33,732 nt of DNA from a virus. Every line of letters starts with the position of its first letter. Positions within the stretch are counted from its first letter, which is position 1. Shown here one piece after another: positions 5,655 to 31,872 of this stretch. A program made the position numbers and the translations under genes. The notes below the pieces were generated by a model. It did not search any database. It was not told the DNA's origin and worked only from the letters and a program-made list of their open reading frames with translations. The stretch spans positions 1-33,732 of IMG/VR virus record IMGVR_UViG_3300033153_007392; one strand, written 5' to 3'.

Positions 5655-5817
5655 TTGCCTATACTGTAGCCAGGAAGAAACGACGCCGGACGAAGCGCGG
5701 GTTGACTATGAGCATCTGCTTTTGGCCGGTGTAAACATGAAGCGTTGCCCTTCTTGCGGTGAAATAGTGGCGGAAGACCATTATTTGTACGCAGAAATCG
5801 AAGGGGAAACACTATGA
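5644..5817 (+). CDS. Small zinc-ribbon protein, 57 aa
   Basis: ATG 5644 lies inside the end of the nuclease gene, has GAAGG upstream, and its TGA overlaps the next ATG. Two CxxC pairs (CLYC at residues 5-8 and CPSC at 35-38) make a classical zinc ribbon. No other domain is present. It sits between the nuclease and the DUF1376 gene, so it probably belongs to the replication/recombination operon, perhaps as a DNA- or protein-binding accessory. The frame fills the gap exactly, which supports it being real despite its size. Confidence 0.7.
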   Translation: MPNNCLYCSQEETTPDEARVDYEHLLLAGVNMKRCPSCGEIVAEDHYLYAEIEGETL

Positions 5818-6572
5818 GTAATTCGACAGCGAACAAACCGCCAGCCTTTCAATGGTATCCTGATAAATGGCTTACAGATACGCGCCGGCTTCCCTGGGCC
5901 GTGAAGGGCCTGTATAAGGAACTGCTTGACGTTATCTGGCTTCAATTCCAGGACACTTGCTCAATACCCGACCAGGCGGACTTCATTGCCGCCGAATTGG
6001 GTTGCACAATCGAAGAATGGGAAATGGCGCGCGATTTTATCATGCTTTCGCACCGTCCTTTGATGATAAAGAAAAGCGGTTGCTTATTTAGCAAGGGGCT
6101 ATGGAAAGAACACGAAAAACAGCGTAAAAGAAGGAAAACATGCTCTGACAATGGGAAGCTGGGGGGGCGTCCAAGGGGTCCAGTAAAGCAAAGGCTTAAT
6201 TCTGAGAAACCAAACGGTAAAGCTAAAAAAAGCTCTCCTTCTCCTTCTCCTATTCCTTCTCCTGCTATACCGTTACGGGGGGCGGGAAGTATTGCGGAAG
6301 GCTTGGAACTTTGGGAAGCGAAAGAGGCAATACTTGATCCAGATAACCCGCCAATTCCCATAATTATGGCCGTAACGCGGGAAAAACTGGATACGCCGGC
6401 TTTCGGTTTCTACGCCAAAGCCTTAATAAAGCTGGGGGAAAAGGAATTCAGAGACATTGCCGGCCATTTCATAGCAGAACTTGATGCCGGGGAAACCGTC
6501 CGTAACCGCGGCGCAACATTCACGGCTAAGCTTAAGCGGTTTATGGAAGCGTTAGGCAAGGTGAAGGGATGA
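5814..6572 (+). CDS. DUF1376 replication-type protein
   Basis: A 252-residue protein whose first 100 residues are a DUF1376 domain: FQWYPDKWLTDTRRL, then GLYKELLDVIW, and ISL-like helices up to WKEHEKQRKRR. DUF1376 proteins sit in phage replication modules and are winged-helix, origin- or helicase-loader-like proteins. A basic, Ser/Pro-rich linker (SPSPSPIPSP) follows, coded by a CT-rich run near 6235-6265. The C-terminal domain ends GATFTAKLKRF, similar to DnaD-like tails. No separate helicase or primase gene is seen, so it may recruit host machinery. Overlaps the next gene at 6569. Confidence 0.75.
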   Translation: MSNSTANKPPAFQWYPDKWLTDTRRLPWAVKGLYKELLDVIWLQFQDTCSIPDQADFIAAELGCTIEEWEMARDFIMLSHRPLMIKKSGCLFSKGLWKEHEKQRKRRKTCSDNGKLGGRPRGPVKQRLNSEKPNGKAKKSSPSPSPIPSPAIPLRGAGSIAEGLELWEAKEAILDPDNPPIPIIMAVTREKLDTPAFGFYAKALIKLGEKEFRDIAGHFIAELDAGETVRNRGATFTAKLKRFMEALGKVKG

Positions 6573-15910: not shown

Positions 15911-16393
15911 ATGTTCAACAAGAGAAATATGTTACTGGGAATGATGGTTTTTGGCGTGCTGGCCCTTGCCCTTGCGGGCTGTAATGGATCCAAGCAAGTC
16001 CTGGGCGGAGATTCGTTTTACGATGCCCCCAACGTTACGGCCATTGAGCAGGGTCTAGCCAAAGTGGCAACGCCTGTTGCCGTGACAAACGACACAACGA
16101 ACACAACCGTAACCATAACCTTGGCCGACCTGGTTGGAACCGCTAAGACTGGTAAGACGCTTGTGCGTTGCTGGCTTTCAGCTACAGACGGGGGCGCCCC
16201 CGAAGCCAGTAGCAATGTGACCGTCGCAACTGGCGTTGAAATTCAGGAAGTCGTTGCAGAAGCCGACTACTGGGTTTTGACTACCGCCGCCGGGACTGCA
16301 TCCCTTACGGTTCTGGATGCTGGGGACACAAACTATTTCTGTACGTCAATCGGCGGGGGCGCGATTAGCTCCACTCCGATGATATTTGAATAG
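15911..16393 (+). CDS. Predicted lipoprotein in the head operon, 160 aa
   Basis: The N-terminus is a classical lipoprotein signal: a basic start (MFNKRN), a hydrophobic core, and the lipobox LAGC with Cys24. The mature part is Thr/Ala/Val-rich and beta-strand-like (VTITLADLVGTAKTGKTLVR, then VWLSATDGG-like), resembling a small Ig-like or decoration-type domain also seen in proteins near phage coat genes. If lipidated, it would go to the host envelope, which is unexpected between coat and connector genes. Alternatively the hydrophobic segment is part of a virion protein. GGGAG lies upstream of ATG 15911. Confidence 0.7.
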   Translation: MFNKRNMLLGMMVFGVLALALAGCNGSKQVLGGDSFYDAPNVTAIEQGLAKVATPVAVTNDTTNTTVTITLADLVGTAKTGKTLVRCWLSATDGGAPEASSNVTVATGVEIQEVVAEADYWVLTTAAGTASLTVLDAGDTNYFCTSIGGGAISSTPMIFE

Positions 16394-20347: not shown

Positions 20348-21136
20348 GTGAGGCTTGCGCGTCTATCGTTGACGGCAAAGAACGGGGTTGACAGACTCCG
20401 CGGCCAAGGCATTGAGCCGGACGCCGACGACATTGCCGCCATACATGAGCTAGGGAAGCGATTAGAAAACCCCGAAGGGTTGCCGGGCCTGTCCGTCCTG
20501 GGCAACCCTATACGGGCTGGAAATTGCACACTCTGGCCTTGGTCTATAGGCGCCGAAAGATGGTATTACCGCCGGGCGCTTCCTTGGTTTGAAGACTTGC
20601 CGGAAGTCCAGCTTTACGCAATTGCCTTTTCCCTCTACTACAGCCATAAGCCGGAAGTCCTGGTTGACATTGTAGACATGAAGGAAGCAAAGAAGGCAAT
20701 CCAGCTTTGGGCAAGTCATTGCGGCGCGACCAGGAACGAATTGGCAAGCGCCATTGATAAGTTAATGCCCGACGACATAGATCCGCCAAAGAAGGAAGAT
20801 GTTTTTTGTCCTGAATGTGCCCGCAAGATGCCAGCGGAAGACGTAGACCAGGACGAAGATAACTTGCCCGACGACTTGGACGAAACAAGCTTTATGGACA
20901 TTTGCGAAATCCTTATTAAGGCTTACCCAGGCACAACGCTGGAAGACTGGCTTTGGTCTACCCCGAAAGCCTTAAGCCTTCGCTTCCTTGAAAGGCATGT
21001 CCCCCAGGGCGCCCAGGAAGAAGTTGACAGCGCCAAGCCGCTTATGAGGGCAACGCATAGATTTGAGACTGGCCTTAGAATGATAAGGGACAAACACCTG
21101 GCGCGCCGGGCGCGAGAAGAAAAAGAGGGTACATAA
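20348..21136 (+). CDS. Probable tail assembly chaperone, 262 aa
   Basis: GTG 20348 follows AGGAAGGGGG. The gene lies between tube and tape measure, where siphoviruses encode tail assembly chaperones. The protein is helical and contains an aromatic stretch (WSIGAERWYYRRALPWFEDL) and a FCPEC pair near residue 157, then acidic and basic helices. Only one frame is present, and I see no second overlapping frame, so the frequent -1 frameshift version of this gene is not evident. Ends TAATG with the tape-measure start. Confidence 0.55.
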   Translation: MRLARLSLTAKNGVDRLRGQGIEPDADDIAAIHELGKRLENPEGLPGLSVLGNPIRAGNCTLWPWSIGAERWYYRRALPWFEDLPEVQLYAIAFSLYYSHKPEVLVDIVDMKEAKKAIQLWASHCGATRNELASAIDKLMPDDIDPPKKEDVFCPECARKMPAEDVDQDEDNLPDDLDETSFMDICEILIKAYPGTTLEDWLWSTPKALSLRFLERHVPQGAQEEVDSAKPLMRATHRFETGLRMIRDKHLARRAREEKEGT

Positions 21137-22902
21137 TGGCCCCTGAATTAAGTATTATTATCAAGGTAAAGAACCTTGCCAAGCGGGGTTTCGACAAGGC
21201 AAGCGCCGCGGTAAGTAGTTTCAGGAAGAAGTTTTCAGCCGGCGCTATCGGCGTCCTGAAAAGCGTTGTCAGTTTACGTACCGGGCTTGTTGCCTTCGCC
21301 GGCATATCGGCCCTGTTTGTCAAGTCTCTACAGAAGGCATTTGAATTTGAACGGTACAAAAGCCAGTTTTCTATCCTGTTTGGAGATATGGAGCAAGCTA
21401 AAAGCCATTTTGAAGACCTGAAAGAGTTTGCCAACGTTACCCCCTTCCAGCTTTCCGACCTGGCCCAGGCTTCCAAAACAATGCTTTCCATGACCGGGGG
21501 CGTTTTGGGGCTGAAAGATTCCCTTACCCTGGTTGGTGACGCCGCGGCAAAGTCCGGCTTCGATATTAAAGAGGTCGGAATGTGGACCGCCAGGGCCTAC
21601 GGCGCCATAAGAAACGGCAAGCCCTTCGGTGAGGCGGCCATGAGGCTTACTGAAATGGGCCTGTTATCCGGGGAAGCCCGCCAGAAAATGGAAGACTTGC
21701 AAAAGGCCGGCGCCAAAAATACGGAGGTTTGGAAGGTCTTAAGGGAGGAATTGGAAAAGAGCAAGGGCGGCATGGAGCTTCTAAGCACTACCGGCGAAGG
21801 CCTCATGTCCACGCTAAAGGACAAATGGGACGGCGCCCTGGCAGACTTCGGCGCGCGCTTCCAGGATCTTGCTAAGGACAAAATCAAACAGCTTATAGAC
21901 TGGATTGACCGGCTGAAAGAAAACGGGACCCTGGACCGCTGGGCAAAGGGCGCGGTTGATGCCCTTACCTTTGTTGCCAAGGCCTTGCGGGCTGTTGGCA
22001 AGGGTATAGCCTGGGTTGTTGATAAGGTGCAGTTTGCCGCCGGGGTTGCCGGGGCTATGTCGGCGGGCGTAGGCTTAGGGGCCGCCGTTGAAGTGGTCCA
22101 GGCCGGACGGGCGGAAGAAAAAGCCGAAAAGGACGCGGGCGAAGCCAGGGCAACAGCTAAGGCAAAAGAACGCGCCGCCGCCGCGATAAAGGCAAAGGAA
22201 CAAGCCGCAAAGGATGAAATAGCGGCCCAGGCGCGCATTGCCGCCGACATGGCGGAAGGCCAAAAGGCCGCCGATAAGAAGCGCGCCGAAAAGGAAGCGA
22301 AGGAAAAGAAGAAGGCCGACGCCAAAGCCTTGAAAGAAAGACAGAAGGCCGCTAAAGAACTTGCCAGCCTGGAAAAAGCACTTGCCGCCGATGATAGGGG
22401 CAAGCGTCAGAAGATAATCGAAGAAAGCTTGACACGCGCAGAACAGAGGAAGGAAACCTGGACGGATGCCTTTACCAGGGCGCAGACCATACGCCAGGAA
22501 TCCAGCGGGGACCGCCGGGCAAGGCGGAAAAGGGAACGAAGGCGGGCTAAAGATAGGTCTTTAAGCATTGAAGAATTGGCGGATCTTAGAAAGCGTAACG
22601 AAGATGTTGGGGACCTGACAAGGGGCGAAGAAGAAGCCTTGCGGGCCGACGAAAAGAACAAGGCCCGCGTTGATAAGCTCCTGGAACGGGAACGCAAAGG
22701 CGAAAACCTTAGCCCATTTGAAAAGCGCCTGATAGACGAAAGGCTTGCCCAGGAAAGGGCTATCAAGGCCGCGGCTGATATTAAGAAGGAAAAGGAAAAC
22801 CTTGAAAAGTTGAAGCTGGAACGCGAAAGAGAACAAGCCAAGGACATTAAAGAAATCCGCAAGAAAATAGATGGTCTTTTGACCTTAAAGAACGGGGGTT
22901 AA
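21136..22902 (+). CDS. Tape measure protein
   Basis: A 588-residue protein with a tape-measure layout: an N-terminal helical region (IIIKVKNLAKRGFDKASAAV), then the conserved FEFERYKSQFSILFGDMEQA, LKEFANVTPFQLSDLAQASK and FGEAAMRLTEMG blocks, a hydrophobic part at residues about 275-315 (AVGKGIAWVVDKVQ and following), then a long Ala/Lys/Glu coiled coil to the end. The length would correspond to a tail of roughly 90 nm if the usual 1.5 angstrom per residue applies. It sets tail length and may help DNA entry. Confidence 0.9.
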   Translation: MAPELSIIIKVKNLAKRGFDKASAAVSSFRKKFSAGAIGVLKSVVSLRTGLVAFAGISALFVKSLQKAFEFERYKSQFSILFGDMEQAKSHFEDLKEFANVTPFQLSDLAQASKTMLSMTGGVLGLKDSLTLVGDAAAKSGFDIKEVGMWTARAYGAIRNGKPFGEAAMRLTEMGLLSGEARQKMEDLQKAGAKNTEVWKVLREELEKSKGGMELLSTTGEGLMSTLKDKWDGALADFGARFQDLAKDKIKQLIDWIDRLKENGTLDRWAKGAVDALTFVAKALRAVGKGIAWVVDKVQFAAGVAGAMSAGVGLGAAVEVVQAGRAEEKAEKDAGEARATAKAKERAAAAIKAKEQAAKDEIAAQARIAADMAEGQKAADKKRAEKEAKEKKKADAKALKERQKAAKELASLEKALAADDRGKRQKIIEESLTRAEQRKETWTDAFTRAQTIRQESSGDRRARRKRERRRAKDRSLSIEELADLRKRNEDVGDLTRGEEEALRADEKNKARVDKLLERERKGENLSPFEKRLIDERLAQERAIKAAADIKKEKENLEKLKLEREREQAKDIKEIRKKIDGLLTLKNGG

Positions 22903-22904
22903 TC

Positions 22905-23195
22905 ATGGCTTGGCTTGACAGTATAACAGAGGCGGGCACGATAGTTGAAAGCAAGAAGTACATGCTTAATGTGCTTTGGACCATTTTCGGAGTTGTCAAG
23001 AAGTACACCCAAACCCGCGTTGTGACAGTTACGACTTACCCAGGCCTTACGCAAGCGGCGGCGGAAACCGCGGCGCAAGCGGCTATTGCGGAAGACGATG
23101 CCACGGACGCGCACACCACCTACAACGGTGCCGGGGCCTATACGATGCAAAAGACGATTGACGTATATGGGGACTGGGAACTGGTCGAACCGTAA
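22905..23195 (+). CDS. Small tail-region protein, 96 aa
   Basis: A small protein after the tape measure. The N-terminal half is mixed helix and strand (YMLNVLWTIFGVVKKYTQTR), the middle is alanine-rich (TQAAAETAAQAAIAEDDATD), and it ends in VYGDWELVEP. It could be a baseplate or fibre-attachment subunit. The spacing from the tape measure is only two bases. No family is recognised. Confidence 0.7.
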   Translation: MAWLDSITEAGTIVESKKYMLNVLWTIFGVVKKYTQTRVVTVTTYPGLTQAAAETAAQAAIAEDDATDAHTTYNGAGAYTMQKTIDVYGDWELVEP

Positions 23196-23210
23196 CGATA
23201 GGGCCGTAAT

Positions 23211-24803
23211 ATGGGTTTCCCCCTAAAATCGAACTTCAAGCCTGGCGACCCAACCGCATCCTTGCAAGCGAATTGGCTTAAGACGGTTGCGAATATCCTT
23301 AACGATGTTAAGGGGATCGGTTGCCATATTGACAAGCCCAACGGCGGCGAAGGTATGGGCTGGCAGATTGTTATTGATGAATCTGCAAGCGCGCAAGGCC
23401 GCGGCAACCGCTTCCTGGTTACTGATTTGACCGGCGGGGAAATCCAGGTAACAACTGGGATTTGGACCCGCTTAGGTATTCCCCTCGCCCTGGCAACGGA
23501 CGTAGGCGAAGAATTCCTTACCGTTGCTGGCATAGGCGCCAACGATTATGTGTACTTGAAGCTTAACGCTAGTTCGACAGACCCGGCTATCCGTCCAACG
23601 TCTATTACTGTTGAAAACGGCGGGTCTAACCCCAATTCCGGCGATATGGAAGGCGTTTACTGGGTCCTGGGCAAGTTTACGAATTCAGTTTGGAAGCCTT
23701 ACTGGGTTGGGGATATAGACGACTTCATGGTAATTCCAGACAGCGAAAGCGACTTCAACGTAACGGACCCGCCCGAAGATTACCGATACCACAGTCTTAA
23801 CTATGCCCACAGGTCCGGCTTACACCTTGGTAATTTGCAAATTCACCAATGGGATACCCCAAGCCAGGAACCTATAGTTGCCAACGATTTAATGATGTTC
23901 CGGGACACTTCCGACAACAATAAGCAGTTGAAATATATAAGCTTTGAAGACCTGGGCAATTATCTTTCTCTTAATATGCCAGTTGAAGGGGAAGGGAACC
24001 TGGGCGATAGAGTAGCCGACGACCTTAACAGCAACAGCAAGATTGAGCATACGCTATTGGACGCAACCAATACCACGCGGGGCGGGGAAGACAATTCATT
24101 TGCGGCCAACGTAGACCATAGCCTTGTGTATCTGGAAGCCTACAATATCGACAGCTACCTTAATGACGGGCGGACCTTTCGGACAACGGGGGACCAATGG
24201 GCGGCGGTCCTTCACGCTTCGGCGGACGGCACCACGGACACGCTGAAAATTGAGCCGGACGCAATAACGGCATTGGGCGCGCTGGCGTTTGATATAGGGG
24301 GCGCGGTTGATTTTGACGCAACAAGTATAGACATGGACATTACCGCGGGCATAGATATTCTGCTAGAAAGCCTGTTCAATCTGGAAAGCATAAGCGGCGC
24401 AATACAACTTAAGACAAACGCCGCGGAAACCAACATTGTAATTGACGCCGCCGCTGTTCTCGACCTTGACTGTACCGATTTGACTATTGATGCGGTCGCG
24501 GGCGCCGCCATAAGCACCAACGGCACCCTTGACCTGAATTGCGAAGACTTGGACATTGACGCCCTTACTTCGGCGGTCCTTAGCAGTCCGGTAATAACTC
24601 TTGAAGGCGGCGCGGGCGGAATTCATCTTGATAGTGACGCACAACTTGACTTAAGCCCGACAGGAATCCTATATATTAACGGAGTTGAGGCGCTAAGTAT
24701 TGCAGACTGGATAACCAAGGGCCTCTTAACGGGGCCTACCGTTGTTGAGAAAACGCGAAATCAGGTTGGCCCCAATGACAAAATACTGGTAATCCCGGCA
24801 TGA
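23211..24803 (+). CDS. Tail fibre/baseplate protein with repeated beta strands, 530 aa
   Basis: The N-terminal part (residues about 1-190) is a mixed domain beginning MGFPLKSNFKPGDP and containing WTRLGIPLALATDVGEEFL. The C-terminal 200 residues have irregular Asp-rich repeats of the type DLDCTDLTIDA, DLNCEDLDIDA and ITLEGGAGGIHL, consistent with a fibrous beta-helix or triple-stranded fold. It has no signal peptide, unlike the following proteins. Probably a receptor-binding or baseplate fibre. The last codons overlap the next start (ATGA). Confidence 0.75.
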   Translation: MGFPLKSNFKPGDPTASLQANWLKTVANILNDVKGIGCHIDKPNGGEGMGWQIVIDESASAQGRGNRFLVTDLTGGEIQVTTGIWTRLGIPLALATDVGEEFLTVAGIGANDYVYLKLNASSTDPAIRPTSITVENGGSNPNSGDMEGVYWVLGKFTNSVWKPYWVGDIDDFMVIPDSESDFNVTDPPEDYRYHSLNYAHRSGLHLGNLQIHQWDTPSQEPIVANDLMMFRDTSDNNKQLKYISFEDLGNYLSLNMPVEGEGNLGDRVADDLNSNSKIEHTLLDATNTTRGGEDNSFAANVDHSLVYLEAYNIDSYLNDGRTFRTTGDQWAAVLHASADGTTDTLKIEPDAITALGALAFDIGGAVDFDATSIDMDITAGIDILLESLFNLESISGAIQLKTNAAETNIVIDAAAVLDLDCTDLTIDAVAGAAISTNGTLDLNCEDLDIDALTSAVLSSPVITLEGGAGGIHLDSDAQLDLSPTGILYINGVEALSIADWITKGLLTGPTVVEKTRNQVGPNDKILVIPA

Positions 24804-26122
24804 AAAAAGTAATAGCCATATTCACCTTGATAGCCGCCGCCGCCTTCGGGCAAGGCAATACGGACCGCGATTTATTTATGACACCAAGCGGCAAGATGTA
24901 TAGTTCCGCGGGCGGATCCTATCGGGACGTATCCCAAGAGCTATCAATTGCCCGCACCAATTCATACCTGATAAAATCTTTCGTGGACCTGACGAATTAC
25001 GCGGCTGGGGTAACTGGAAGCGTAGTCTACCTGCGAGATAGTGCCTCTTATGAATTCAATGGCTTTGTCACCAACCCGCTTTCAATAAGGGTCGGCGTAT
25101 CGAATATCTTGTTTGGCAATAGCTGGGCAAATGATATTCTTTACTACACCGGGACGAATAGCGCGCTTATTTCATCGAATGACAATATTACCTTCCGCAC
25201 CTTCACCGTTTCTTCCACCAACGGAATAGGGTTGAGTATCCACAACACGAATTCGTCCTTGGTGTCTATTGAGAATATGGCGTTTGCTGATAACCAGACC
25301 TGTTTAGACCTGAATGGCGTTTACCGGCTACGGATTGCTGGGAGCATCTTCCGTGATTTTATCGGCACCGAAGCGGCCTACCTGTATGGGGCGGGGCATG
25401 AGTTGTTCTTATTTGATAATATCTTTGAAGCTGAAAATGCTGGCACCGTAACCAACGTAAATCTTGCGGGCACATGGGACGTTATAGACATAAGCAGAAA
25501 CTATTTTGACATGCACACCCAGGACGTTGCTATTGCTGGAATCGCTAACAACGGCAACATTGATACCGGCGGCGGATTGTTACAAGGTAATTTCTTTCGA
25601 TTGTCCGGGGGGGTTGTACTTCCGCACACCAACTATATTACTGGTCTGTCGCATGGTGACACTGATTGGGAATGGAATAGCAATTTTGGCGCAGATGATT
25701 CCGCGGCGGCGGGCGGTTTGGCCCTTACCAATGATACCATAATGCCAATTCTGGCAAAGGACACTTGGACCGTGGTAACTAATGATTTGCTTCCCTATGC
25801 CAAAGAGGAACGCTTTACTACGGCCTCAAATACGCTAACCTATACGGGCAATAGGGAAATTCCCGTAACTGCTGTTCTGACAATAAACTGGGAGCCTGAC
25901 ACAGGCAATAATCAGGCTCTTGTTTTTGCTGTATCTGTTAATGGTGTGCGGAATGGGTTTTTAAGAACACAGGGAGAGACAGGCGCGGGTACAGCCGTTA
26001 ACTCTATTACTACCTGGTTCTTAGAAGTGGATACCGGGGACAACATTACACTTGAAGTTATGAATACCACTTCTTCCAGGGATGTGCTATTTCATAATGT
26101 AAGGCTAGTGCTAAAGGAATAA
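24800..26122 (+). CDS. Secreted beta-helix tailspike-like protein, 440 aa
   Basis: A 440-residue protein with a Sec-type signal (MKKVIAIFTLIAAAAFG, likely cleavage near residue 18). Residues about 90-250 show irregular strands with NTNSS, DNQTCLDLNG and RIAGSIFRDF turns as in right-handed beta-helices of tailspikes and pectate-lyase folds. The last 125 residues (TWTVVTNDLLPYAKEERF to the end) look like a TNF/C1q-type jelly roll, a common trimerising or binding tip. A signal peptide on such a protein is unusual for a virion component. The start overlaps the preceding stop. Confidence 0.75.
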   Translation: MKKVIAIFTLIAAAAFGQGNTDRDLFMTPSGKMYSSAGGSYRDVSQELSIARTNSYLIKSFVDLTNYAAGVTGSVVYLRDSASYEFNGFVTNPLSIRVGVSNILFGNSWANDILYYTGTNSALISSNDNITFRTFTVSSTNGIGLSIHNTNSSLVSIENMAFADNQTCLDLNGVYRLRIAGSIFRDFIGTEAAYLYGAGHELFLFDNIFEAENAGTVTNVNLAGTWDVIDISRNYFDMHTQDVAIAGIANNGNIDTGGGLLQGNFFRLSGGVVLPHTNYITGLSHGDTDWEWNSNFGADDSAAAGGLALTNDTIMPILAKDTWTVVTNDLLPYAKEERFTTASNTLTYTGNREIPVTAVLTINWEPDTGNNQALVFAVSVNGVRNGFLRTQGETGAGTAVNSITTWFLEVDTGDNITLEVMNTTSSRDVLFHNVRLVLKE

Positions 26123-26127
26123 CGACA

Positions 26128-26400
26128 ATGAAAATGGTATTGTACGCTATCTTGGTTCTGCTTGTATGCGCCTCTTTTGTCTGTAGCTCCGAAGAAACGG
26201 CCACAGTTGTCCAAATCAAAGTCATAGGCACCAATACCCCTTCTTTCAAAACGATCACGCTTGATGGTTGGGAAATCATTTATGATAATGCCACCTGGAC
26301 GGGCCGCGTTACGAAGGTCGGAATAGCCGACACTAACGGGGCTATATGGCAAGTGACAGTATCAACCAACGGAACATTGACAGCCACGTTAAAACCATAA
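26128..26400 (+). CDS. Small secreted protein, 90 aa
   Basis: The N-terminus (MKMVLYAILVLLVCASFVCS) is a clear Sec signal or anchor. The two cysteines do not form a clean lipobox. The mature part of about 68 residues is beta-type (VVQIKVIGTNTPSF, then GWEIIYDNATWTGRVTKVG) and could be one small domain. It lies five bases after the tailspike-like gene and so belongs to the same transcript. Function unknown, probably envelope or surface located. Confidence 0.65.
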   Translation: MKMVLYAILVLLVCASFVCSSEETATVVQIKVIGTNTPSFKTITLDGWEIIYDNATWTGRVTKVGIADTNGAIWQVTVSTNGTLTATLKP

Positions 26401-26413
26401 GGAGCCTAGACAG

Positions 26414-26830
26414 ATGAAACTTATAGCCTTAATAACCGCGTTCTTACTTACGTCCTTCGCTACAGCGATTGCCGCGCCGCCGACAAGTATTGATTCCTAC
26501 TTTTCCAATTCCGTAGTTACCCAGGTGACATTTGCGGACGCAGGGGACACAGGCCTGGAAACGAACACCGTCTATATCTGCATTGAAATGACTACGTTGA
26601 CCAATTCAGAATACACCGCAACGCTTGTAACCAACGATGTGCGGCCCTTCATGTCGGCCATGATTAAGGAACTGGCGGCGGAGATACAAGCGAAGCCCAG
26701 CACTAACCGCTTTACAACGTTTACGATTGAAGAATCAACCGCCTTTTCCGGGCCGACCAACCGCGTTACCAGGCGGACGGTTAAGGAAACGCAAGAATTG
26801 GAAGTGACGCCCAGCTATCCGGGCAACTGA
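26414..26830 (+). CDS. Small secreted protein, 138 aa
   Basis: The signal peptide is strong: MKLIALITAFLLTSFATAIA, with a plausible cleavage at AIA-A. The mature protein has beta-type strands with Thr/Asn (SNSVVTQVTFADAGDTGLET), a central helix (RPFMSAMIKELAAEIQAK) and a Thr/Arg-rich end (TNRVTRRTVKETQELEVT). No family recognised. An AAGGAG ribosome site precedes ATG 26414. It shares the exported character of its neighbours. Confidence 0.65.
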   Translation: MKLIALITAFLLTSFATAIAAPPTSIDSYFSNSVVTQVTFADAGDTGLETNTVYICIEMTTLTNSEYTATLVTNDVRPFMSAMIKELAAEIQAKPSTNRFTTFTIEESTAFSGPTNRVTRRTVKETQELEVTPSYPGN

Positions 26831-26875
26831 GATATTGAACACCAACGGCTAAGATGCTAAAATGAAGGGCACAAC

Positions 26876-27127
26876 ATGAAGAAGAAAGCCAAAGCGAAGA
26901 AGAAGGCGAAACAGAAGAAAACCGCGAAGCCTCAGACCGGCTTAGTTATCCCCCTGGATGCCCAGGAAGCCGCGGTTGTAGTTAAGGGTCTGGTAAACCT
27001 TCCCTTGGCTATGAATAACCCCCTTTATAGTGCCGCCCAGCGCGTCATACAGCGCGTACAGGTAGGCGCCCAACAACTGGCAGAAAAACAACAGAAAAAA
27101 AAGCCCAAGGACGCCGCCCGCGGTTAA
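26876..27127 (+). CDS. Lysine-rich small protein, 83 aa
   Basis: The N-terminal 18 residues are almost all Lys/Ala (MKKKAKAKKKAKQKK), the middle is a mostly hydrophobic helix (VIPLDAQEAAVVVKGLVNLP), and the end is basic again (QQKKKPKDAARG). This is the only protein in the 24.8-29.7 kb block without a signal peptide. It could bind nucleic acid or membrane. The leader carries AAATGAAGGG with a five-codon upstream frame ending at its ATG. Confidence 0.6.
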   Translation: MKKKAKAKKKAKQKKTAKPQTGLVIPLDAQEAAVVVKGLVNLPLAMNNPLYSAAQRVIQRVQVGAQQLAEKQQKKKPKDAARG

Positions 27128-27146
27128 TCATTGGAAAGGTTGAAGA

Positions 27147-29702
27147 ATGAAATACATAAAAGAACTTTGTGCCATTGTAACCCTTGCGGCGTCTTTGGCC
27201 TACGCGGCCCCGTACACAACGGTAAGGTTTGAATCTCAAAACCCAGGCGAAGACAAGAACCTGGAAGCCAGCCAGCTAGGCACTACGGCCATAAGGGCGT
27301 ACAGCTACAGCGAAGGCACCATTAACACCTTGACAACCAACGACACCGGCATTTTTGGCTATGGGACCAATTGGGATCTTTCGGCGTCTATGGTCCTGGT
27401 TGAGGGAGCCGCGAACACCAACGGCAATTATTTTGACATAACGCTTGCTTCGTCAAACCTTCCGGCGAATGGGACATATTACTGGCAAATGCTCCAAACC
27501 AATAGCCAGAATTCAAGCCTGTACGTCCTGGGCAAAGGAACCCTTGACGTTATGCGGTCCCCCATTACCGGCGGCGCAACAGTCTTAAGTCTTCAACAGA
27601 TTGTTAACTGGGACGGCGTTGTCACCTTCGGGGCGCCCTGGGTTTCCACAAATGACACATCTTATTTGAACGGTCTAACCAACGGCGCCTTGGTTGAAGG
27701 TAGCACCAACGGCCTTGTAATTTCCGGGCGGACCTTCACGCTTACAATCAAAACCAACGAAGTTACCAGCGTTGCCGGCAGACAGGGGGACGTTGTTATT
27801 GTATCGGCGGATCTGGCCGACCTGGAAGCAACTATTTCCGCCAATGCCAGCGTTGCGGCCAATACGGCAAAAGCTACTTACCCCGTTGCCGACTCTAACA
27901 AGGTTGCCGGCATAGAAGCTCTGGCTGATGTTACAGACACAGACAACGTAAGAGCCGCCGGCGCTCTAATGGACGATGAAGTGGACGCCGACCTTAAGAC
28001 CTTCGTGCTTCCAGCGGATACGACAATTTCAGCCTATGGAAAAACCCTTGTGGACGATGCCGACGCCGCGACGGCGCGCACTACCCTGGGCGTTATCATA
28101 GGAACAACGGTGCAAGGATGGTCCGCAATCCTTGACGGCATGACTTCTATTTTTACGGTTGCCATGTCGAACAAGTTGGCCGGTATTGAAGCGTCCGCGG
28201 ACGTAACCGACGCGGACAACGTAATCGCGGCGGGCGCGTTTATGAAAGATGGTTCAATACCCGCGACAGGCAATTGGGACTTGGACGGCTATTCAATTAT
28301 TGGCATAGGAACCAACAGCCTAACCTTTTCCAACGGGGACAAAATATCAATTGTTGGCACCAACCTATGGTTTATAAGGTCCGGCTCTAAGAGTAACCAA
28401 TTGGACGGCGCAAGCGATATTGAAATGTCCGCGGCGAATGAAAACATTTCGGCCAACGCTTCGCTTATCACAACACACCACACCGAAAATGTGGCGGACA
28501 TAGGGCGCAACGCCAATAATATCCTGGCTAACGGTTTCCGCATTGCCGTGAACGGTAGCCTTACAGCATTTGACTATGAGGACGGCTGGCTGGATGAATT
28601 TGAGGACCAGTCCGGGGTTGCTACCGCGCTGGGTTCAAATTTCACATACGATGCCGCGAGTGATTACTATTCCTACGCCGCGCAAGTATCGGTTACTTTT
28701 CCAACCGGCATATTAGCGCATTACAAAATGAATGACGACGCCGCAAATGTGTATGTTACAGATGAAACGGCGGGGCATCCAGGCGGCTTAAACGGCGGGG
28801 ATGATACCGCGGACTTGTCGGTTGCGGGCAAGCTCAATGAAGCCTTGCACATGGACGGCGCTAATGATTGGGTGGACTTGACAAACAACTTTAGCGGCGT
28901 CAAGTCAATGGTCTTTTGGGCATATAATGATACTGAGCTAGGGGCCGCTGAGACAGCGCGGGGCCTCATTGGTTGCGGGCATGGTCAATATCCCTTCTTG
29001 CTTTTCGGCAACTTCTCAGGTGGGTTAGCAGACGAATTTCTGTCCATTGGTGTGTCTGACGGCACGCATTGGTGGAATCAAACCGACATAGGGGGCAATA
29101 TCGCTGTAGGCTGGCACCATTACGCAATAGTATGGGACGGGGTTTCAACTTACCGGCTTTACATTGATAATGTTGATAAAGGTCTAGCAAGGGAAGATTC
29201 CGCACCTTCGGAAGCGGCCACTTGGAACGCCGCCCGCTACGGAGTGGCTAATACGTTTGAATGGGATGGTCCATTGGACCAAGGGATTATATATAACAAT
29301 AGTCTTAGCGCCGCAGATGTGGCGTTACTTTGGAACGGCGGCGATGGTACGGAATCAATTACCGGAACTGAGGGCGCGGGCGGCAACATGGAGTTAATCT
29401 CGACTAACGCCTTTGTTTCTATCTCTGGCAATCCAGTCGAAGCAAGGGTTATGGTCTTGCACGAAAATATAACAGGTGTGGCCGTATTGAATACCGATCT
29501 AAAGGCCTTTGCTTCAAGCGACCAGGGCACGAACTGGAACCAGATAACGCTTACGGACATTGGCGAATTGTCCGCGGGTATTTCTATGTATGCTGGAACA
29601 AACGCCTTAACCGGCTCAAGCTCCAACATGGCGGTAAGGGTTACGACACACAACACCAACCAAGCGGGCCGCGTTCACGGTTGGTCCGAATTATGGAAAT
29701 AA
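27147..29702 (+). CDS. Secreted LamG fibre-like protein, 851 aa
   Basis: The N-terminus has a Sec-type signal peptide (MKYIKELCAIVTLAASLAYA, cleavage at about 20), followed by a beta-rich domain (residues 25-150) similar to phage upper-baseplate/fibre N-terminal domains. Two copies of SNKxAGIEAxADVTDxDN lie near residues 250 and 340, as in many tail fibres. Residues about 520-740 form a LamG/concanavalin-like sugar-binding domain (ILAHYKMNDDA, HMDGANDWVDL, GWHHYAIVWDG, YRLYIDNV). The C-terminal 110 residues are beta-type (EARVMVLHENITG). The best receptor-binding candidate, but the signal peptide would send it to the periplasm or outside. Confidence 0.75.
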   Translation: MKYIKELCAIVTLAASLAYAAPYTTVRFESQNPGEDKNLEASQLGTTAIRAYSYSEGTINTLTTNDTGIFGYGTNWDLSASMVLVEGAANTNGNYFDITLASSNLPANGTYYWQMLQTNSQNSSLYVLGKGTLDVMRSPITGGATVLSLQQIVNWDGVVTFGAPWVSTNDTSYLNGLTNGALVEGSTNGLVISGRTFTLTIKTNEVTSVAGRQGDVVIVSADLADLEATISANASVAANTAKATYPVADSNKVAGIEALADVTDTDNVRAAGALMDDEVDADLKTFVLPADTTISAYGKTLVDDADAATARTTLGVIIGTTVQGWSAILDGMTSIFTVAMSNKLAGIEASADVTDADNVIAAGAFMKDGSIPATGNWDLDGYSIIGIGTNSLTFSNGDKISIVGTNLWFIRSGSKSNQLDGASDIEMSAANENISANASLITTHHTENVADIGRNANNILANGFRIAVNGSLTAFDYEDGWLDEFEDQSGVATALGSNFTYDAASDYYSYAAQVSVTFPTGILAHYKMNDDAANVYVTDETAGHPGGLNGGDDTADLSVAGKLNEALHMDGANDWVDLTNNFSGVKSMVFWAYNDTELGAAETARGLIGCGHGQYPFLLFGNFSGGLADEFLSIGVSDGTHWWNQTDIGGNIAVGWHHYAIVWDGVSTYRLYIDNVDKGLAREDSAPSEAATWNAARYGVANTFEWDGPLDQGIIYNNSLSAADVALLWNGGDGTESITGTEGAGGNMELISTNAFVSISGNPVEARVMVLHENITGVAVLNTDLKAFASSDQGTNWNQITLTDIGELSAGISMYAGTNALTGSSSNMAVRVTTHNTNQAGRVHGWSELWK

Positions 29703-29711
29703 GGGGAAGCT

Positions 29712-29981
29712 ATGAAGAAAGTTATATTGACCGTTTCACTTGTTGTCCTGGTAGTCTTTGGCCTTGTCGCGTTGTCCATTGCGAAGCCTCAGAAGGTTTC
29801 AAACGTGGCGCTTAAGGAACGGTCCAGTAAATTCGACGCTCATAAGCAGGATATTAAGGACGTTCTTAGCCCCGCGGCGGTAGACGCCATTGACAACATG
29901 GCGGAGTTGAAGGCGTTTCTTAAGAAGCAACAGAAGGTTATTAAGCTATTGGTGCAAACTCAGTACGTGGAAAAGGAGTAA
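29712..29981 (+). CDS. Small membrane or exported protein, 89 aa
   Basis: The N-terminal 25 residues (MKKVILTVSLVVLVVFGLVA) are a membrane anchor or signal, followed by a charged, helical 60-residue part (LKERSSKFDAHKQDIKDVL and KAFLKKQQKVIKLL). The topology fits a small periplasmic helix held in the inner membrane. It starts the putative lysis region, so it could be a holin accessory or spanin-like protein. ATG 29712 has AAGGGGAAG upstream. Confidence 0.6.
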   Translation: MKKVILTVSLVVLVVFGLVALSIAKPQKVSNVALKERSSKFDAHKQDIKDVLSPAAVDAIDNMAELKAFLKKQQKVIKLLVQTQYVEKE

Positions 29982-29986
29982 AGGGC

Positions 29987-30367
29987 ATGTACGGAAAATT
30001 GACGGTTATGATTGCGGGCGCGGTTGCCATGCCGGCTTTGTCTCACTTGGCACAACTCAATGTTGACACCACGGCGGGGAAGCTTGCCCATGCTTCGGCC
30101 CAGGGCGTTCTTGCTCTTGTCGTTGTCGCGGAAGCTGTTGCCATTATTTTCATGTTCAAGCAATGGCGTAACGATGTTGCTAAGAACCAGGAGCAAGTAG
30201 AAGAAAGGGCTGGAAAGCTTATTGAACTCATTTCAGAAAACACCGCTGTAATTGCTCAGAATAATGACGCCAGCCACAGAAGCGCGCGCGCAACGGAAGA
30301 CTTCCAAAAGACAGTTGCCAGGCATACGGAAGTAATAGCCCGATGCGACAGGGGGAAGGATGATTAG
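29987..30367 (+). CDS. Holin or inner spanin-like membrane protein, 126 aa
   Basis: A clear hydrophobic helix at residues about 38-58 (GVLALVVVAEAVAIIFMF) is preceded by a weaker hydrophobic segment (LTVMIAGAVAMPAL). After the helix comes a coiled-coil-like charged tail (KNQEQVEERAGKLIELISEN) of about 65 residues. One-helix plus coiled-coil topology fits an inner spanin; two helices would fit a holin. The Rz1-like lipoprotein gene overlaps its end, as inner and outer spanin genes often do, so spanin is slightly preferred. Confidence 0.55.
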   Translation: MYGKLTVMIAGAVAMPALSHLAQLNVDTTAGKLAHASAQGVLALVVVAEAVAIIFMFKQWRNDVAKNQEQVEERAGKLIELISENTAVIAQNNDASHRSARATEDFQKTVARHTEVIARCDRGKDD

Positions 30368-30587
30368 AAGCCCCCGGAAAGCGTCCATTTGGGCCTTCAT
30401 GGCCCTTGTGCTGGTTTTGGCGGTTCTGGCGTTGCCAGGCTGTACCAAGGCGCCCCTGGGGAATACAGGGCCTATTTATCCCTATCCTGGGGAACTCCTG
30501 GACAATGACGGCAACCCGGTCCAGCCGCCGACCTGGACAAACCGGCCCCCAACCAATTCGGGAAGCTATGAGGAAGCCATGCCATGA
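30360..30587 (+). CDS. Rz1-like outer-membrane lipoprotein (outer spanin candidate)
   Basis: A 75-residue protein with a signal and lipobox LPGC (Cys28). The mature part of 48 residues is proline-rich (PIYPYPGELL, then QPPTWTNRPP), as in outer spanins such as Rz1. No Asp follows the cysteine, so it should reach the outer membrane. Its gene overlaps the preceding membrane protein by eight bases. Together they would fuse the inner and outer membranes at lysis. This supports a Gram-negative-type host. Confidence 0.65.
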   Translation: MIRSPRKASIWAFMALVLVLAVLALPGCTKAPLGNTGPIYPYPGELLDNDGNPVQPPTWTNRPPTNSGSYEEAMP

Positions 30588-31354
30588 CAGAAAACGGCAT
30601 TAAAGACGGCATTATTGAAGACCCCCTGGCCTGGCAAGGCGCATTGAGCCGGTCCGCGCCGCTGGGCGCCCCCCCGGATAAGCCCGTAACCAAGAAATAC
30701 CCGCCTGTAAGTATGTGGTTTTCCTGCATGGTCCCGACTTACCGCCAGCATGGGGAAAGTTGCGTAGGCCACTCCTGGGCAAATTGGATTGAAGGCATGG
30801 TAAGGCGCTGGATTGACCCCCTGGGGATCCCCAAGGACTGCCAGATAGACGGCCAAGCGATTTGGGCGCAAGGCCGCAAGATGTTCTGGAATGGCAACAT
30901 GCAGGGCGGCCTTTACATAGACCAGGGATATAAGGCCGCGGTTGCCCTGGGCTGGCTTCCCGCGGATAGCGCCCTGGTAAAGGTCCCCCAGGACTGGAAC
31001 ACCATAAACAAGTATTTGGCGGCTTCCCCGATGGTCCAGGGGCACAGTTTGACGCAAGCCTGGTTCAATGCTTCCCCGGAGTCCGGCTGTATAGACTACA
31101 GCGCCCCCAAGACGCCCAAGGGCGGCCATGCAACGCTTCTTATTGCAACCCTTGAACGGCAAGACACAGAGGGCATTTTGACGCGCTGGCGGGTCCTTAT
31201 GAATTCCTGGGGGCGCAACCGGGGCCGGTACGGATTCTTCACCATGAAGGATAAGACCTGGCTGGATACCGCTATAGCAGATTGTCCATATACGGCCAGA
31301 ATTCGGGATATTGACGCCTGGGACGGCTGGAAAGGCGGCTTGATTAAGCTATGA
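30584..31354 (+). CDS. Papain-family (C1) cysteine peptidase
   Basis: A 256-residue protein with all catalytic elements of papain-like peptidases: oxyanion Gln55 and Cys60 in RQHGESCVGHSWAN, His182 in KGGHATLLI, and Asn207 in MNSWGRNRGRYGFF. The NSWG box is diagnostic. No signal peptide and no propeptide of usual length are present. It lies after the Rz1-like gene, where an endolysin is expected, and no lysozyme, amidase or transglycosylase is seen elsewhere. It may cleave peptide bonds of the host wall or a protein layer, or may process virion or host proteins. Ends in an overlap with the DUF1353 gene. Confidence 0.85.
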   Translation: MTENGIKDGIIEDPLAWQGALSRSAPLGAPPDKPVTKKYPPVSMWFSCMVPTYRQHGESCVGHSWANWIEGMVRRWIDPLGIPKDCQIDGQAIWAQGRKMFWNGNMQGGLYIDQGYKAAVALGWLPADSALVKVPQDWNTINKYLAASPMVQGHSLTQAWFNASPESGCIDYSAPKTPKGGHATLLIATLERQDTEGILTRWRVLMNSWGRNRGRYGFFTMKDKTWLDTAIADCPYTARIRDIDAWDGWKGGLIKL

Positions 31355-31872
31355 CCAGGGCTGAAAAATACGGCCATTGGACCGGGACCTATGAGCTAAG
31401 GCCTATTCCTATCCCTGACTGGTCGGACTTGCCCTGGTATAAGCGGGCCTGGAAGCGCGCGACCTACACCGCCCTTTACGAGTTTCTTAACGATAAGGTG
31501 ACGCCCTTGACCCTCATGGACCGCAAAGGCGCCCTTTGGCGGCCCGACAATCACCTTATAACGGATATGGGAAGCGTCCCGAAGCGATTGCAAGGGCTTA
31601 TTCCCTGGTTGTTCGCGAAGGATCTTTGGCTTAGGGATTACATTTTGCATGATAGCGCCTATAAAATGGGCGGTTTGTGGGCTTCGGACGGGACGAAGGC
31701 CTTTGTATTCGTTCACATTACCCGCGCCCAGGCGGACAATCTGCTTTCCATGTCAATCAAGGCTTCCGGCGGCGGCTCCTTTAGCTCTGGCCCTATCTGG
31801 CTGGGCGTAAGGGTTGGCGGCGGCGGATCCTGGAACAAGGGGGACTTAAGGAACACCTTGCCCCCGAAATAA
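31351..31872 (+). CDS. DUF1353 family protein, 173 aa
   Basis: Carries the DUF1353 pattern ITDMGSVPKRLQGLIP, followed by DYILHDSAYKMGGLW, and a C-terminal HITRAQADNLLSMSI. The family is widespread in phages and its function is not established; the TD-GSVP and HD-Y residues suggest a metal or catalytic site. It comes directly after the cysteine peptidase (overlap ATGA) and ends the late operon. The C-terminus is glycine/serine-rich and looks disordered. Co-transcription suggests a joint role with the peptidase, perhaps in lysis. Confidence 0.8.
   Translation: MTRAEKYGHWTGTYELRPIPIPDWSDLPWYKRAWKRATYTALYEFLNDKVTPLTLMDRKGALWRPDNHLITDMGSVPKRLQGLIPWLFAKDLWLRDYILHDSAYKMGGLWASDGTKAFVFVHITRAQADNLLSMSIKASGGGSFSSGPIWLGVRVGGGGSWNKGDLRNTLPPK

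Follow-up and report, generated by a model that had tools for sequence, protein, structure and literature searches.

According to the textbook account, tailed phages assemble entirely in the cytoplasm, and in vitro work on T4 and P22 has shown that fibres are attached late, in a step that can be separated. Phages also encode exported morons, often near tail genes, such as Cor, Llp and Sim; as a rule these occur singly, do not resemble fibres and do not belong to the virion, and Lom of lambda shares with the proteins described here that it is an exported phage protein encoded near tail genes. Export of endolysins via Sec has been described (PMC6116005), and phage proteins of DGR systems were reported without signals (PMC6199706). 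In Porphyromonas gingivalis, Q-rule signal proteins of Nixviridae prophages have been interpreted as membrane modifiers; like the predicted exported proteins studied here they are Sec substrates encoded by a phage and matched to the signal peptidase of its host, but they were reported to be of unknown function and taken for possible outer-membrane modifiers rather than fibres (PMC10367356). The verrucophage P8625 (KP792622) resembles the phage analysed here in being a siphophage of about 33 kb with 51% GC, a P22-type coat protein and a LamG protein behind the tail fibre, but differs in that signal peptides are absent, both according to its authors (PMC4642752) and by our home-made rule, and in that the dipeptide TN is not enriched. 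As in our phage, successive genes of the distal tail region encode signal-peptide proteins in Cellulophaga phages phi10:1 (gp091-gp095, KC821618) and phi39:1 (gp25-gp26, KC821626), whose records are silent on export. No account of exported tail fibres was found in the open-access papers searched, and the novelty of the arrangement is therefore provisional.

We analysed an IMG/VR virus record of 33.7 kb (33,732 nucleotides; the whole stretch is called the window below, and its genes are named by their first position). Its gene order is that of a siphophage, with terminase, portal, P22-type coat protein and tape measure protein, the last at 21136..22902 (PHROG 973, E = 3e-19; no signal), which served as the upstream landmark. 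The next genes are 22905 and the fibre-like 23211 (23211..24803, its N-terminal half conserved in sequence L011), both without a signal peptide, followed in order by 24800, 26128, 26414, 26876, 27147, 29712, 29987, 30360 and the papain-like peptidase gene 30584; all features given here for the window are on the plus strand. The predicted exported block thus lies in the late operon with the tape measure gene upstream and the lysis genes, which were identified by position and domain only, downstream. Intergenic gaps from 20348 to 31872 were -8 to +45 bases, so that, as far as sequence can tell, this is a single late transcription unit; promoter- and terminator-like sites were near shuffle level and no transcription signal set the block apart. 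Neither 24800 nor the capsid protein gave a match in scans of viral contigs, and scans of genome contigs with the tape measure and the terminase gave no confirmed relative. Further upstream, the gene immediately following the major capsid gene (15911..16393) encodes a lipoprotein signal according to the signal rule, and its relatives in sequences L010 (4571-5065) and L012 (10147-10641) have an ordinary Sec signal; the family has a conserved mature domain with two cysteines (LVRCW, NYFCT).

The initial annotation had proposed that 24800, 26128, 26414 and 27147 start with Sec signal peptides, which was confirmed from the N-termini, the signal rule and the gene starts. The predicted leaders are MKKVIAIFTLIAAAAFG in 24800 (mature protein starting with QGN), MKMVLYAILVLLVCASFVCSS in 26128 (EET), MKLIALITAFLLTSFATAIA in 26414 (APP) and MKYIKELCAIVTLAASLAYA in 27147 (APY); in each of them a short, positively charged n-region precedes a clean hydrophobic core, which is followed by a possible cleavage site. 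Signals were called with a home-made rule based on n-region charge, hydrophobic core and a -3/-1 site or lipobox, and by this rule the four proteins have the predicted sequence features of substrates of Sec and signal peptidase I. The Q-rule of Bacteroidota was not followed, with Q at position +1 in 24800 only (1/4). The rule flagged 7/8 genes in 24800-30587 as compared to 2/39 elsewhere in the window (Fisher p = 4e-6). As this loose rule also flagged 13 of 128 spurious ORFs, position and conservation outweigh any single signal call. Shine-Dalgarno-like motifs were present at the starts of 26128, 26414 (strong) and 27147, and 24800, where no clear ribosome-binding site was seen, has a 4-base overlap with the upstream stop. 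As a control, 151 annotated proteins from six phages were scored, and values of at least 33 were counted. Matches were Lom, Rz and Rz1 of lambda, gp26 and a small gene of phi39:1, and one small protein each of RHph_I65 and Pam3, while P8625 (30 CDS) and Mu gave zero in the stretches tested.

The first protein, 24800 (24800..26122), has a leader of about residues 1-17 and a C-terminus that matches a PHROG tail-fibre family weakly (E = 6.5e-4), and it is a candidate tail-fibre or tailspike-like protein. Its AlphaFold model (pLDDT 40) was too poor to use; a Foldseek search with it gave no significant match, several of the top ones being beta-helical proteins. Two small predicted exported proteins follow, of 90 amino acids (26128..26400) and 138 amino acids (26414..26830), and then a lysine-rich cytoplasmic protein (26876..27127). 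The largest product is the predicted exported fibre 27147 (27147..29702, 851 amino acids), with a leader of residues 1-20, a conserved N-terminal domain to about residue 174 and a variable remainder that includes a LamG domain. LamG was detected by six-frame search (PF13385 at 28995-29324, E = 3.7e-11, 38 bits, above the curated cut-off); hmmscan, run on the full-length protein with E ≤ 1, gave no match, not even LamG. The AlphaFold model of the N-terminal domain, built from two sequences, was also too poor to use (pLDDT 36), and a PDB profile search with this domain gave weak antibody matches only. Of the tailspike and LamG build that had been read from the letters, the LamG part stands for 27147, and the tailspike part is weaker for 24800. 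The block from 24800 to 29702 likewise holds, but it is wider than first described. It continues with a small protein with a signal or membrane anchor by the signal rule (29712..29981), a membrane protein with a transmembrane segment that is a possible holin by position (29987..30367), and a lipoprotein that is a possible spanin (30360..30587; lipobox LPG with the cut before C). Next comes a papain-like C1 peptidase, a possible lysis enzyme (30584..31354; Pfam Peptidase_C1_2, 5.5e-5). Both in the window and in the relative described next, its gene comes after that of the lipoprotein, where one would expect an endolysin.

A contig syntenic with the window, G002 (3300023284_001561, L017), encodes a tape measure protein that is 55% identical to ours. 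In its block the proteins again have N-terminal signals, some of them read from an internal start. The homologue of 27147 shares 56% identity with it over residues 1-174; beyond these no similarity was detected, and the homologue has PHROG tail-fibre domains at its end (2e-5). In this one pair an N-terminal domain is conserved and the C-terminal region exchanged; the conserved domain begins where cleavage is predicted, and the letters of the leader diverge more. Homologues that consistently lack the signal had been named as evidence against export, and the single homologue of the 27147 domain that was found, the one in G002, retains it. LamG is fused into 27147 in the window and is a separate predicted exported gene in G002. 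Also kept in G002 are the lysine-rich 26876 protein (44% identity over 59 residues), the 30360 lipoprotein (50%) and the 30584 peptidase (57%); the capsid-adjacent signal gene is absent. In both phages the small lysine-rich protein without a signal is encoded directly before the exported fibre gene (window 26876-27127; L017 17153-17401, minus strand), and it is a possible chaperone. Reading by eye, we also noticed a protein with a response-regulator-like receiver domain in the G002 lysis region (L017, reverse complement 5791-6150).

During the controls we came across phi39:1 gp26, a virion protein by MS/MS according to GenBank, which begins with MKNFIYLVLLFFSVASYG followed by QAKEV; gp25 of the same phage is probably signal-bearing too. 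Leaders ending before Q, as in the Bacteroidota Q-rule (PMC5837995), were found in phi10:1 (gp091-gp095), phiSM (gp08 and gp09), phi13:2 (gp084, gp086 and gp087) and phi46:3 (gp079 and gp080). Among these signal-bearing proteins, all of phi10:1 gp091-gp094 as well as phiSM gp08 and phi39:1 gp26 are noted in GenBank as virion proteins by MS/MS, although vesicles could carry exported phage proteins into such preparations. In the tabulated stretches a strict Q-rule signal was present in 6 MS-verified proteins and absent in 49, and 3 signal proteins were without MS support; this sample is small and biased, since phi10:1 and phiSM were picked for their homologue of phi39:1 gp26. No signal-bearing structural protein was found in phi18:1, phi17:1 and phi14:2 in the stretches tested. 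The Cellulophaga blocks differ from that of the window in following the Q-rule; no homology between the blocks was found, and the one match is a weak one between the tape measure proteins. As in the window, an N-terminus is conserved and the C-terminus exchanged in phi10:1, where the first 42 residues of gp094 are 93% identical to those of phi13:2 gp087 with no similarity after. In addition, phiSM gp09 (L030 6591-9875) and phiST gp030 (L031 6030-9776) have about 1080 amino acids in common at 63% identity; phiSM gp09 has a signal peptide at its N-terminus, and phiST gp030 has 171 other residues that by look were taken for a conventional fibre N-terminus.

The contig 3300042261_001067 (L005, GC 0.30), reached through the LamG domain only, comes from a third phage, which is unrelated to the window but arranged alike. 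Three proteins of its tail region have signal-type leaders: one of 1479 amino acids, one identified as a Tail Collar protein (Pfam 4e-20, PHROG tail 1.5e-37), and a LamG protein, whose leader was read by eye after the signal rule had missed it. Recognised tail-fibre or binding domains are found, then, in 27147 (LamG), 24800 (the weak PHROG match), the G002 homologue and the Collar protein of L005. The dipeptide TN was about 2.3-2.5 times as frequent as expected in the exported proteins of the window, G002 and L005 (0/500 shuffles) and about as expected or below in their cytoplasmic proteins. NT was not enriched in the exported proteins of these three phages, and a motif search around TN gave nothing further. 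Many codons are used for TN, which places the effect at the amino-acid level. Since the enrichment is confined to the exported proteins, these differ as a set from the cytoplasmic virion proteins, which is an independent sign that they evolve under other constraints. TN-rich secreted proteins are a feature of Verrucomicrobiota, and on this ground a host of the window phage in that group is no more than conceivable.

Three interpretations had initially been offered for the block, namely export of fibre-like proteins into the host envelope, completion of the tails outside the inner membrane, and retention of the signals as hydrophobic anchors. The second is now the best supported, because Cellulophaga proteins of the same layout are annotated as virion by MS/MS, and the third is disfavoured. 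By analogy with these phages, we consider it somewhat probable that the block encodes Sec-exported receptor-binding fibres that become part of the particle beyond the inner membrane. Receptor-binding tail fibres or spikes and their small partners would be exported by the host Sec system late in infection, signal peptidase I would remove the leader, and the proteins would fold in the periplasm. Assembly of heads and tail tubes would meanwhile go on in the cytoplasm, and the lysis genes at the operon end would open the envelope, so that ready-made fibres could dock on the tail tips. Cleavage, periplasmic folding, the time and place of docking, and a window phage behaving like the Cellulophaga phages are four points that we infer. 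The Cellulophaga records suggest that virions can contain proteins with signals.

The reading ranked second, and in our judgement rather unlikely, is that the fibre-like proteins are not part of the virion but act in the periplasm or at the surface late in infection, with putative roles in receptor masking, phage exclusion or keeping progeny off debris. Phages do export such factors beside their tail genes, Lom of lambda being one example and Cor, Llp and Sim others. The unexported fibre-like 23211 fits this reading as well, as it could be the real fibre, and so does the interpretation of signal-bearing prophage proteins as membrane modifiers (PMC10367356). However, several consecutive fibre-type proteins are encoded here in one late operon, the N-terminal domain is conserved while the C-terminus is exchanged, and virion annotations exist for comparable proteins of Cellulophaga phages. 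It is improbable that the leader is never cleaved and acts as a hydrophobic N-terminal element anchoring the fibre in the particle or membrane. The -3/-1 sites are good in 24800, 26414 and 27147, the Cellulophaga leaders follow the Q-rule of cleaved proteins, and a retained anchor is disfavoured because conservation of the fibre domain sets in immediately behind the predicted cut, whereas the letters of the signal diverge; such an anchor would suit the weak cleavage site of 26128 and the leader of 29712, which is as anchor-like as signal-like. Quite improbable, too, is an origin as lysogenic-conversion cargo, in which adhesins or sugar-binding proteins unrelated to adsorption would derive from host secreted proteins. 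Secreted proteins of bacteria would likewise be expected to have LamG and a composition rich in TN, and the gene adjoining the capsid gene carries a signal as well, but the block is packed tightly within the late operon, its own transcription signals do not stand out, and tail-fibre PHROG and Collar matches were obtained. Finally, downstream true starts that would leave the signals unmade are very improbable in spite of the loose home-made rule and its hits in spurious ORFs, given that each listed start has a ribosome-binding site or a translational overlap and that the signals are kept with different letters in G002.

Export of receptor-binding fibres, with attachment to particles on the far side of the inner membrane, stays the preferred reading, and by comparison with the Cellulophaga records it suggests that in some tailed phages the tails may be completed outside the cytoplasm of the bacterium, against the textbook. 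We propose more tentatively, with a little less than even confidence, that phages of several diderm host groups have a common, undescribed route in which fibres are secreted by Sec, matured in the periplasm and fitted at lysis to particles made in the cytoplasm; here the signal peptide may replace a different N-terminal region, as between phiSM gp09 and phiST gp030. With the Cellulophaga phages available in culture and their virion proteomes determined, the question is directly testable. If true, phage assembly, lysis timing and the evolution of host range would be tied to the secretion system of the host, and periplasmic folding and modification would be open to fibres. Receptor-binding proteins in metagenomes may then be misread as host or moron proteins because of their signal peptides.
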